Of a stretch of DNA of 64,000 nucleotides, positions 52,667-55,460 are shown piece after piece (position 1 is the stretch's first letter; every line of letters begins with the position of its first letter). This DNA is from Sinomonas atrocyanea (GTDB taxonomy: Bacteria; Actinomycetota; Actinomycetes; Actinomycetales; Micrococcaceae). The stretch covers positions 372,001-436,000 of the forward strand of contig NZ_JAUSTE010000001.1 of assembly GCF_030812675.1 (NCBI RefSeq), in the 5' to 3' direction. The notes below the pieces were generated by a model. It saw only the letters and a program-made list of their open reading frames with translations, ran no database searches and had not been told where the DNA came from. A program made the translations under genes and the position numbers.

Positions 52667-52915
52667 ATGCCCTCTACCCCGGCTGCCCCGGCGGACCTGC
52701 TGCGTTCCCTCCCGCTCGGCACGCGCGTGGTGGTGCGGTCCAGGGTGCCGGGAGGGTTCACCGATGCGCTCGGGGACCTGGTGGCGTGCGACGACGAGAC
52801 GGTCACCGTCCGCACGAGGCGGGGAACCGCCGTCGCGCGCCTCGGGGACGTGGCCGCGGCGAAGCCGGTGCCTCCCCCGCCGGAGCGCCGCGGCCGGCGA
52901 CGGCAGGAAGGCTAG
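52667..52915 (+). CDS. Small SH3-like domain protein resembling the N-terminal domain of actinobacterial GNAT acetyltransferases
   Basis: This 82-residue protein has one predicted small beta barrel (GTRVVVRSRVPGGFTD, LGDLVACDDETVTVRTR, GDVAAAKPVPPPP). I recall the pattern as the SH3-like N-terminal domain found before GNAT domains in some actinobacterial acetyltransferases. No GNAT domain follows here, so it is a stand-alone domain or a remnant. A basic RRGRRRQ tail ends it. TACGAT (52656-52661) is 5 nt before the ATG. It converges with the DUF6230-type operon, overlapping its last gene stop by 4 bases. Confidence 0.65.
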   Translation: MPSTPAAPADLLRSLPLGTRVVVRSRVPGGFTDALGDLVACDDETVTVRTRRGTAVARLGDVAAAKPVPPPPERRGRRRQEG

Positions 52916-53688
52916 GGCTGCACCATCCGCTGGTCGGTGTTCGTGTAGCTGATCGAATCCGCCGTGGCGCCGACCAGGCCCATGGTGACCCTGAGGAGGC
53001 CGGGCGCGACGTCGTCGAGCGGCGGAGGTGTGTCGGTGCCGAGAGCCAGGCTCCGGCCGTTGGAGGTGGTGCCGGTGACCGATCCCAGGTAGACGGTGAC
53101 GTGCCCGCTGAGCACCATCTTGTCCGCGGACGTGACGAGGCCGGGGCCGTTGGGCCGCCGCACGGTGAGGGTGAACCCGGTGATGGTGATCGAGTCGGCG
53201 GTGATCTTCAGGGCGCGCTGGCCGCTGCCGTCGGCGGTCGGCACCGTCACGATGCTGACCGAGCTGAGGCCCGTGAAGGACAGGCTCTTGGAGCCCATCG
53301 AGGCCGGGGTCTTGGTGAAGACCGTGGTCCCGTTGTCGCGGGAGGCCTGCACGGGGGCGCTGGACGTGGGATCCGGACTCGCACTGGGAGCCGGGCTCGC
53401 GGTCGATCCCGCGCCCGGGGCTGCCGGGACGCTGGGGCTGGACCCGACGCCCGGCAGCAGGGTGCCGGGGACGGTGGGGAGCGGCCCGGGGGCGGCCGGA
53501 TCCTGCGTGGGGGTGCCCGCCCCCGGCGCCGAGGGGCTCGGCGTCGGGCTGGGGCAGGCGACCAGGAGCGGCACGCACAGCGCCGTGGGGACGCTGTCGG
53601 GGGCCCGCGCGGCCCCGAGGGTGAAGGGCAGCGCGAGGACCGAGCCCGTCAGGACGGCGGCGACCGCGCGGGTGCGGCGTACGTTCAC
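52912..53688 (-). CDS. Secreted Pro/Ala/Ser-rich protein, third gene of the DUF6230-DUF6114 operon
   Basis: This 258-residue protein has an N-terminal signal peptide (VNVRRTRAVAAVLTGSVLALP, probable cleavage after A-R-A near residue 28). A long Pro/Ser/Ala/Gly linker (about 40-120) leads to a C-terminal beta-rich domain with SMGSKSLSFTGLSSVSIV near residue 132 and KMVLSGHVTVYLG near 192. Its KITADSITITGFTL segment loosely resembles the DUF6230 partner, so it may be a distant relative. The linker is typical of wall-spanning exported proteins. The GTG start overlaps the DUF6114 stop (GTGA). I do not know its function. Confidence 0.7.
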   Translation of the reverse strand: MNVRRTRAVAAVLTGSVLALPFTLGAARAPDSVPTALCVPLLVACPSPTPSPSAPGAGTPTQDPAAPGPLPTVPGTLLPGVGSSPSVPAAPGAGSTASPAPSASPDPTSSAPVQASRDNGTTVFTKTPASMGSKSLSFTGLSSVSIVTVPTADGSGQRALKITADSITITGFTLTVRRPNGPGLVTSADKMVLSGHVTVYLGSVTGTTSNGRSLALGTDTPPPLDDVAPGLLRVTMGLVGATADSISYTNTDQRMVQP

Positions 53689-54134
53689 TCCGTCCTCTTT
53701 CCCCGCGCGGCCCCCGGCGGGCCCATCCACGCGACGACCAGGACTCCGCCGGCGCCGGAGAGGAGCATGCCGATGATGAAGCCGCCCATGTTCACGCCGA
53801 CGAGGGAGTAGATCGCGACCACGAGCGTGAGGATCCCGTAGAACACGTGGTGCGCCGGCATGGTGACCGACAGGACTCCCAGCAGCACGAGTGCGATCGG
53901 GATGACGGTGGCCTGGAGGCCTTCGATTCCGAGCTGGATGTGCAGGTGGCCGAGGTCGAGCTGCCCGGAGAAGAACATCTCCACCCCGCCGAGCGCGGCC
54001 AGCAGGCCGCCGACGAACGGCCGCCCGCGGCGCCAGTCGCGGAAGCCGGCCGCGCGGCCGGGCGCCGTGGCGCTCCGGGACCGCACGGGCGCGCCGTCCT
54101 CAGTGGTCGTCGATGCGCGGCTCCTCAGAAGCAT
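53685..54134 (-). CDS. DUF6114 family membrane protein
   Basis: This 149-residue protein has an Arg/Ala-rich N-terminus and about four membrane segments (starting RPFVGGLLAALGGVEMFF near residue 41, then QATVIPIALVLLGVLS, HVFYGILTLVVAIYSLVG, and FIIGMLLSGAGGVLVV). The conserved RDWRRGRPFVGG and LSVTMPAHHVFYG match the DUF6114 family as I recall it, found beside DUF6230 genes in Streptomyces and relatives. Its role is unknown. A membrane anchor or chaperone for the exported partner is inference. The start overlaps the DUF6230 gene by 10 bases. Confidence 0.78.
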   Translation of the reverse strand: MLLRSRASTTTEDGAPVRSRSATAPGRAAGFRDWRRGRPFVGGLLAALGGVEMFFSGQLDLGHLHIQLGIEGLQATVIPIALVLLGVLSVTMPAHHVFYGILTLVVAIYSLVGVNMGGFIIGMLLSGAGGVLVVAWMGPPGAARGKRTE

Positions 54135-54739
54135 CCCTTGGACCCATCAGTCAGCTGCATGCTCATCCCGGTCAGGGTGAAGACCGAGGCCTGCGTGCTC
54201 CAGGCGGTCTGCTGCAGGTTGGTGATCGAGATGCTCCCGGAGTCCTGCGCGAAGTCGCCGGCCGAGCCCTTCGCGGCGGTGTTGACCGTCGAGGCGTCCA
54301 CGCCGATCCGGATGTTGCCGAAGGCCGCATCGCCCTTCAGGCCCGTCATGCCGATCTGGAGGTCGGAGGCCGAGGCGGGGTTGCCGCCGCCGCCGGCCTT
54401 GATGAGCACGCCCACCTTGCCCAGCGGAGTCTCCGTGACCACGGCCTGGCACAGGTCGGAGAGGGTGGCGCTCTTGATGTTCGCGATCGCGACGGGGTGC
54501 TCCTTGCCTTCGGTGTCCTTGGCGACGCCGGCGTACTGGGAGAACCCGGTTCCGTTGAGCTTGGAGGCGCCGATCTGGAACTGGCTGCCGGAGACCGCGA
54601 AGGAGACCGGGACGGCACCCTCGGCGACGCCGCCCATCAGGACTGAGGCGGCGAGGGCCGCGGGCACGGCGACGAGCATGATGCGGCCTGCGTGGGACGC
54701 GCGCATCCGGCGGACGCGCTGCGAGACGGGGAACTTCAT
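54125..54739 (-). CDS. DUF6230 family exported protein
   Basis: This 204-residue protein starts with a positively charged leader and one hydrophobic segment (GRIMLVAVPAALAASVLMGG near residues 18-37, ending in AEGA, a possible signal-peptide site). A beta-rich domain follows (AVPVSFAVSGSQFQIGASKL, SISITNLQQTAWSTQASVFTL). Two cysteines occur (DLCQAV and the terminal GCF) that could pair. The family is sometimes called cholesterol esterase in Streptomyces annotations without evidence. AGGAGG precedes the ATG. It is the first gene of a three-gene operon behind a TTGACT/TATCTT promoter. Confidence 0.78.
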   Translation of the reverse strand: MKFPVSQRVRRMRASHAGRIMLVAVPAALAASVLMGGVAEGAVPVSFAVSGSQFQIGASKLNGTGFSQYAGVAKDTEGKEHPVAIANIKSATLSDLCQAVVTETPLGKVGVLIKAGGGGNPASASDLQIGMTGLKGDAAFGNIRIGVDASTVNTAAKGSAGDFAQDSGSISITNLQQTAWSTQASVFTLTGMSMQLTDGSKGCF

Positions 54740-54786
54740 TGATCCTCCTGGAACAGGGCCCGCCCCGAGCGGCGGGAACTCGGTCG

Positions 54787-54824
54787 AAGATACCGAGCCT
54801 GTTGACCGCTAGTCAATAGTGGTC
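54787..54824 (-). promoter_or_regulatory. Promoter and TetR-type operator of the DUF6230 operon
   Basis: On the minus strand TTGACT (54811-54816), an 18-nt spacer and TATCTT (54787-54792) form a good sigma-70-like promoter about 50 bases before the DUF6230 ATG. A 21-bp palindrome GACCGCTA-gtcaa-TAGTGGTC (54804-54824, 7 of 8 arm bases match) covers the -35. A divergent TetR gene begins 37 bases away, so repression by it is likely. Confidence 0.65.
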
Positions 54825-54860
54825 CGGTGTGGCGTTCCACCGATCAGTAGACTTTCAGCT

Positions 54861-55460
54861 GTGTCCGAACCGCAGCGCGCCCGCCTCAGCCCCCAGGATC
54901 GCCGGGCGCAGCTCATCGCGGTCGGCGTGAACTTCCTGACCGACCACACGCTGGACGAGCTGACCATGGACGAGCTCGCCCGCCGGGCCGGCGTCTCGCG
55001 TCCGCTGGTGTTCCACTACTTCGAGACCCGGCAGGGCATGCACCTCGCCGTGGTCACCACAGCGCGGGACAGCCTGCTCGTCGCCAGCGTTCCGCGCCAG
55101 GACCTCGCGCCGCGCGAACGGATCCGGGACACGCTGCTGAGGATCACCGTGTTCGTGCAGGAGCACCGCGGTACCTTCTACTCGTTGGTGAGGGGCACTG
55201 CCAGCGGCGATCCCGCGGTGCGGAGGATCGTGGACGAGTCGCGCGAGCTCAATGCCGAGCGCCTGTCCGATTCGTTCATCGAGCTGGGCCTTGCGGACAC
55301 CGCGCTGCTGCGCATTGCCCTGCGGTCTTGGGTCGCGTTCGCCGAGGAGACCCTGATCAGCCTGGCGATCGAGCGCGAGACGGGCGCCGACGACGTGGTG
55401 CGCTTCCTGGAGGCGTCCCTGCACGGCATGGTCAACTCCATCCGCGACCAGAGGCTCTGA
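54861..55460 (+). CDS. TetR family transcriptional regulator (likely controls the DUF6230 operon)
   Basis: This 199-residue regulator has the N-terminal helix-turn-helix (LIAVGVNFLTDHTLDELTMDELARRAG in residues 15-42, recognition helix VSRPLVFHYFET) and an alpha-helical C-terminal domain with AFAEETLISLAIERE. The GTG is chosen because TAGACT (54848-54853) is 7 nt upstream. The longer frame would extend past that promoter. Divergent from the DUF6230 operon with a 21-bp palindrome between, so autoregulation and control of that operon are inferred. The ligand is unknown. Confidence 0.85.
   Translation: MSEPQRARLSPQDRRAQLIAVGVNFLTDHTLDELTMDELARRAGVSRPLVFHYFETRQGMHLAVVTTARDSLLVASVPRQDLAPRERIRDTLLRITVFVQEHRGTFYSLVRGTASGDPAVRRIVDESRELNAERLSDSFIELGLADTALLRIALRSWVAFAEETLISLAIERETGADDVVRFLEASLHGMVNSIRDQRL

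Follow-up and report, generated by a model that had tools for sequence, protein, structure and literature searches.

What is the purpose of three small overlapping genes that recur together in actinobacteria, often opposite a regulator gene of their own? The question is raised by a locus in Sinomonas atrocyanea, where an operon for a DUF6230 protein, a DUF6114 membrane protein and a third, exported-looking protein stands beside a divergent TetR-family gene. It lies in a stretch of 64,000 nucleotides (contig NZ_JAUSTE010000001.1, positions 372,001 to 436,000; hereafter the window) of a 4.12 Mb genome. The Pfam entries DUF6230 and DUF6114 give no function, and in open-licence literature no mention was found of DUF6114, SCO5421 or SCO5422 (two Streptomyces coelicolor loci discussed below), with DUF6230 appearing only in a promoter table. 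The sequence-based analysis given here lends good support to a surface cassette that is conserved and has its own dedicated TetR gene, probably encoding a repressor. It is highly probable that the products form a surface complex with its own repressor. A role of the cassette in lipid handling is possible but leans towards the doubtful, and the statement as a whole, of a cell-surface complex under a dedicated TetR repressor and tentatively for lipids, is close to evenly balanced, slightly on the doubtful side.

Protein families were assigned with the Pfam and NCBIfam profile libraries. The sequence-only reading, an earlier description made from the letters of the window, had named the two DUF families, and both stand by curated cut-off. 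The first protein matches PF19741 over the entire model (1–145 of 145; E 2.9e-46; 157.8 bits against a gathering cut-off of 27.5), as does the second with PF19609 (1–106 of 106; E 6.4e-31; 107.6 bits against 27.9). NCBIfam has no match for the DUF6230, DUF6114 or third protein, and the best Pfam match of the third (E 0.27) is below cut-off; by these searches neither library has a model for its family, which stands beside the DUF pair in genomes reaching from the order of the window to Streptomyces-like ones. The three minus-strand genes overlap by 10 and 4 bases, as first described (coordinates read from the open reading frames, ORFs). Pairwise ratios of nonsynonymous to synonymous substitution rates (dN/dS) against four relatives lie between 0.05 and 0.37 for all four genes, and between 0.20 and 0.37 for the third, indicating purifying selection. 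In the scan of named records described next, the closest relatives belong to two Sinomonas species and to an entry under the name Arthrobacter alkaliphilus, all three showing 98 % identity over the DUF6230 domain.

The earlier expectation that the DUF pair, the third gene and the TetR gene recur together is borne out. A scan of named records with a 12-member DUF6230 alignment gave 454 encoding loci, the best 80 of which, near relatives of the window, were retained. DUF6114 follows DUF6230 in 79 of these 80, while 77 have the third gene and 63 a divergent TetR gene; the three loci lacking the third gene (L121, L127, L154) reach a contig edge soon after. The 4-base overlap of the third gene with the DUF6114 stop is found in 58 of 73 unfused homologues with a start placed by script. 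Further afield, DUF6230 was found in 21 of 297 genomes of the order and in 22 of a 396-genome phylum sample, two overlapping samples whose counts both include the own genome, which has a single DUF6230 gene. Gene neighbourhoods were read in 39 further stretches drawn from these samples: 38 have DUF6114 next to DUF6230, a figure that counts one fragment (L084), and in the exception, L027, the contig ends; the third domain is detected in 24. When the neighbours at 122 loci in 40 hand-labelled groups were clustered, DUF6230 appeared in 31 groups, the third gene in 25 and TetR in 20 (DUF6114 was not counted because the gene caller missed many of its genes). The next clusters, in 6 and 5 groups, are antisense ORFs over the operon, and the remainder are found in at most 4. 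As no other neighbour recurs widely, the cassette recurs in varied surroundings. Half of the 22 phylum-sample genomes (11) belong to a single family (f21), which we take to be the Streptomyces family, so a functional answer would reach well beyond the genus.

The regulator matches TetR_N (4e-9; 36.6 bits against a cut-off of 24) and TetR_C_46 (6.6e-8), and its best match among solved structures is 2qib (3.4e-19), a TetR-family regulator for which the listing gives no function. Its start is most likely the GTG at 54861 because several close homologues are 199 amino acids (aa) long; from this GTG the distance to the DUF6230 ATG is the 121 bases originally reported. The longest possible ORF begins at 54819, the last base of the candidate operator. 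The proposed TTGACT-18-TATCTT promoter is also upheld, being the one match between 52500 and 55600 where shuffled sequences gave a mean of 0.0 (standard deviation 0.2). The palindrome described on its -35 hexamer does cover that hexamer and is conserved beside TetR, but it had been placed at 54804–54824, 5 bases away from its actual position (Table 1). As the candidate site covers the -35 hexamer of the region's only promoter-like match, steric repression is suggested.

The association of site and regulator is close. The exact core TTGAC-N5-GTCAA is found in 54 of the 63 TetR-bearing loci and in none of the 17 without TetR (Fisher 3e-11, uncorrected for relatedness). Among 55 sites chosen at up to 3 mismatches, the inner arm positions carry 1.7–2.0 bits, the outermost 0.55–1.24 and the spacer 0.08–0.57. 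The best operator match in 1,600 shuffles had 4 mismatches once and otherwise at least 5. Within the window the consensus has a single match at up to 3 mismatches, a limit at which 4 of 100 shuffles also have a match. A search of 28 genomes included 15 of the genus: 10 have DUF6230, the same 10 have a site at up to 2 mismatches and the remaining 5 have neither; in nine genus genomes other than that of the window the site is close to both the TetR and the DUF6230 genes. Sites with 2–3 mismatches also lie beside TetR in five genomes of other families (L025, L037, L038, L042, L043). In ten loci that lack this TetR (including L026, L082 and some of L072–L079), the best consensus match close to DUF6230 has 5–7 mismatches, as in shuffles. 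In eight of the loci with a TetR gene, no site appears at up to 3 mismatches. Two of them (L100, L108) retain the core, and the other six (L137, L138, L141–L143, L146) have neither consensus site nor core; these six may use another operator, and regulator and site may have diverged together.

The own genome contains three further TTGAC-N5-GTCAA cores, against none for the control pattern, and none has the outer arms. A wider TetR regulon was considered on this account and rejected, the extra cores being read as background. One of them (G000:C23:9632-9646; L174, L182) is placed between the divergently oriented genes for malate synthase G and a lactate permease.

Table 1. Positions of the cassette genes, protein segments and control elements in the window
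Feature	Position	Strand	Description	Basis
DUF6230 protein	54125-54739	-	204 aa, ATG start	Pfam PF19741, hydropathy, predicted model
DUF6114 membrane protein	53685-54134	-	149 aa; 10-base overlap with DUF6230 gene	Pfam PF19609, hydropathy
Third gene	52912-53688	-	258 aa, GTG start; 4-base overlap with DUF6114 gene	
Third-protein linker	53344-53550	-	residues 47-115	composition
Third-protein C-terminal beta domain	52915-53343	-	residues 116-258	alignment of 76 sequences; predicted model
Ribosome-binding site AGGAGG	54744-54749	-	ahead of DUF6230 ATG	sequence reading
Divergent TetR-family regulator	54861-55460	+	199 aa from GTG 54861	Pfam TetR_N, TetR_C_46
Probable TetR operator	54799-54819	.	CTATTGAC-N5-GTCAATAG, one mismatch	conservation
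Promoter-like TTGACT-18-TATCTT	54787-54816	-	-35 within candidate operator	pattern search

The view that the products are exported and linked to the membrane, also part of the sequence-only reading, is supported by hydropathy segments and by fusions of DUF6114 with the third domain. The DUF6230 protein has a single N-terminal hydrophobic export or anchor segment (residues 16–40) followed by a beta-rich mature part with two cysteines, one in the motif DLCQ and the other near the C-terminus. Its predicted model contains ten strands (predicted local distance difference test score, pLDDT, 83.8). The inner cysteine is present in 19 of 24 diverse members, all of which also have a cysteine near the C-terminus, aligned in 15 and present besides in L078, L079, L080 and L043. 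Four of the five members without the inner cysteine (L044, L086, L087, L089) have no cysteine in their last 15 residues, L090, which has one, being the exception. This co-occurrence mostly fits a disulphide bridge, which suggests that the DUF6230 protein is located outside the membrane. For DUF6114, the four helices described earlier are plausible: strong hydropathy segments occupy residues 66–139, but nothing rises above threshold for the first segment, and the protein probably has three to four transmembrane segments.

The third protein begins with a signal-like segment (residues 8–27), soon followed by the cysteine pair LCVPLLVAC (53554–53577), a Pro/Ser/Ala/Thr linker and a C-terminal beta domain. 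The pattern C-x(3-9)-C, often in the form C-I/V-P-L-x(2,3)-C, is kept in 70 of 73 unfused homologues, and the 69 residues of the linker include 19 Pro, 12 Ser, 12 Ala and 7 Thr. A model of the beta domain has nine strands (pLDDT 82.0). The suggestion that this domain is a distant relative of the DUF6230 protein is not supported by profile comparison, which puts the probability at 2.7 %; both predicted models are beta-rich with long strands. DUF6114 and the third domain form a single ORF in five loci (L164, L169, L038, L042, L078) and, judged by eye, in L082. All three fusions checked (L164, L169, L078) have an extra hydrophobic segment between the two parts, and the fusions are spread over several branches of a quick DUF6230 tree, midpoint-rooted and with support values not inspected. 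Because they have been fused repeatedly, DUF6114 and the third protein probably act together.

A long Pro/Ser linker and an exported beta domain would also suit a structural or adhesive surface element, a wall-spanning stalk with two beta proteins and no lipid role, which might be exposed and variable in the manner of a phage receptor. In Streptomyces pratensis, the consecutively numbered genes Sfla_1909–1911, of which two are labelled hypothetical and one 'cholesterol esterase', belong to a set of 59 core genes with unusually high divergence (PMC4239341). Such divergence would fit exposed proteins if, as order and name suggest, these genes are this operon. Such an element is nevertheless somewhat unlikely: the genes are under purifying selection relative to four near relatives, and control through one dedicated site is more in keeping with a function that can be switched on than with a surface layer that is always present.

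On the reading preferred here, of a regulated surface complex, the TetR protein would bind CTATTGAC-N5-GTCAATAG, covering the -35 hexamer, and so would shut off the operon and perhaps its own gene as well, until a ligand releases it from the operator. The DUF6114 protein would then sit in the membrane; the linker of the third protein would keep that protein's beta domain on the outside, where the DUF6230 beta protein would work with both. Tentatively, the complex at the cell surface may bind or pass on lipids or hydrophobic molecules of another kind, and growth on fatty substrates as the carbon source may induce the cassette. A still more specific version, in which an inducible, wall-spanning device takes up lipids or other hydrophobic substrates through a DUF6114 base, a tethered third beta domain and a free or anchored DUF6230 shuttle, with an acyl ligand releasing TetR, is decidedly unlikely; if it were true, the S. 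coelicolor copy would be misnamed as a 'cholesterol esterase'.

Several observations weigh against the reading of a single regulated surface complex. The operon is kept in 13 Brevibacterium loci whose retrieved flanking sequence showed no TetR gene, and several lineages have the DUF6230–DUF6114 pair without a detected third gene. The agreement among the 80 nearest loci is in part shared descent. Outside the genus, two genomes that lack DUF6230 (L184, L185) have sites with 2 mismatches, the own genome also carries a second site, with 2 mismatches (G000:C1:548464), and a reversed control pattern was matched in 3 of 28 genomes. The DUF6230 model has no fold match at E ≤ 0.001 in the PDB, nor any among viral models, and the third-protein model has none at that limit in the PDB. 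A comparison of the DUF6230 sequence with solved structures also gave nothing (best E 0.61). Some lower-ranking names were discarded as evidence: FadL, at rank 8 for DUF6230, and LptA, at rank 50 for the third domain (template modelling scores, TM-scores, of 0.12–0.21), as well as the third domain's top match, a lipopolysaccharide-binding protein (E 0.07, probability 0.38, TM 0.21).

The lead towards lipids comes from Streptomyces. Four genomes of about 6–10 Mb, taken here to be Streptomyces (L072–L075), share the order thioredoxin-like gene, DUF6230, DUF6114, third gene and convergent pyruvate kinase gene. A fifth, L077, has the thioredoxin gene and not the pyruvate kinase neighbour; the search for the thioredoxin domain covered L072 and L077. 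In S. coelicolor, SCO5419 is trxA4 (PMC9952706) and SCO5423 is pyk2 (PMC7494193). The gene order of L072–L075 matches the run from SCO5419 to SCO5423, and by this position SCO5420 is a DUF6230 member, an equivalence resting on synteny. SCO5420, labelled 'cholesterol esterase', is up almost 37-fold on Tween 40 relative to glucose (PMC7494193).

The label raises the alternative that DUF6230 is a secreted esterase, the 'cholesterol esterase' of actinomycetes, which the other two proteins anchor or present. The name and the rise of the synteny partner on Tween 40 speak for it, as would, if that protein is a DUF6230 member, the report that an S. scabiei 'cholesterol esterase' makes up 33–39 % of extracellular lipid-class protein (PMC5158115); its production was called not specific to suberin (PMC4098958). 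A Ser-His-Asp esterase finds no backing in the family: among 12 DUF6230 members one Ser is invariant and no His, Asp or Glu is, although Asp D109 is nearly so, and the best His column has His in 11 of 24. The catalytic site might still be an unusual one. The DUF6230 model, beta-rich and without a significant fold match, also argues against an esterase, which is unlikely overall. One member, assigned to DUF6230 by synteny, bears the name of an enzyme, and conservation across the family gives this name no support.

Tween is also a detergent, and its effect, together with the combination of a small membrane protein and exported proteins, would be compatible with an envelope-stress set induced by membrane disturbance. 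The locus SACTE_4612 of strain SirexAA-E is, by its numbering, probably the orthologue of SCO5420. This 'putative cholesterol esterase' is up on xylobiose (2.04) and xylose (1.51) relative to glucose, on the paper's scale (PMC12772271), which can hardly be membrane stress; beyond the cassette, moreover, no gene recurs widely beside it. A stress set is very unlikely.

The same rise on xylose counts against the tentative lipid role, as do several other points. The Tween and glucose cultures differed in growth rate (PMC7494193), and with a likely orthologue also up on xylose, relief from glucose may explain the rise on Tween. Nor is the name 'cholesterol esterase' unique, since Sven_0933 bears it and is listed without an S. 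coelicolor homologue (PMC3087709). Genes of lipid type do lie near some copies: an acyl-CoA dehydrogenase in L084, a beta-oxidation multienzyme in L087, MPAB/Lcp oxygenases in L082 and L085, a cytochrome P450 near some DUF6230 copies and, in the window's own order, acyl-CoA-dehydrogenase-like genes near the cassette in L026–L028. These neighbours were picked by eye, with no background rate, and no lipid gene is a recurrent neighbour in the 122 loci and 40 groups. Such genes are common in actinobacteria. The evidence from lipid neighbours is weak. The LmeA lipid carriers of actinobacteria are exported and comparable in size to the DUF6230 and third proteins; homology to LmeA (PF11209) was rejected by profile comparison, at 0.7 % for DUF6230 and 0.5 % for the third domain, where LmeA halves compared with each other gave 100 % as a control.

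Individual loci show further arrangements. In L044 (3824–7568) a tandem cluster of three DUF6230 matches and two DUF6114 ORFs lies near a glutamine synthetase gene, and is followed by an exported-looking 326-aa protein without a Pfam match above cut-off. In L087 (1426–3960) and L089 (1451–3982), DUF6230 adjoins a large murein-hydrolase-like protein with SLT and M23 domains (assigned from L087; L089 is similar). The N-terminus of this protein is weakly DUF6230-like (Pfam E 0.16; 5e-14 with an iterated profile, possibly through drift). The DUF6230 gene of L039 has one in-frame TAG, the neighbouring DUF6114 and third genes being open over lengths like those of relatives. MPAB/Lcp (rubber-oxygenase-type) oxygenase genes lie near DUF6230 in two different loci, L082 and L085. 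DUF6230 is also present in seven plasmid records. Of three examined, only a Rhodococcus record has gene names, with glycosyltransferases upstream of DUF6230 and DUF6114 and an alcohol dehydrogenase downstream.

The third family without a model, the repeated DUF6114 fusions, the sharply defined candidate operator and the Tween 40 lead offer direct handles on function. For the TetR protein the best NCBIfam similarity is to FasR, a sensor of long-chain acyl-CoA (47.2 bits, residues 20–151). Identity with FasR was rejected, as this score is far below the equivalog cut-off of 330 (NF053731). FasR is called an activator (PMC7382501), whereas the TetR protein of the window looks like a repressor. The SCO5420–SCO5422 region has the same three-gene order, between thioredoxin-like and pyruvate kinase genes in the four syntenic genomes. 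Loci of this type differ from the window in that no TetR gene is the immediate neighbour of DUF6230, although one of the TetR family lies past the thioredoxin gene; close to the DUF6230 start the operator consensus is matched with no fewer than 6 mismatches, and their third protein is about 445–555 aa as called, against 258 aa. With the DUF6230/DUF6114 pair of Pfam the window shares both members, by curated cut-off, and their adjacency; to this pair it adds a third gene, a TetR gene and a candidate operator, which are covered by neither entry.

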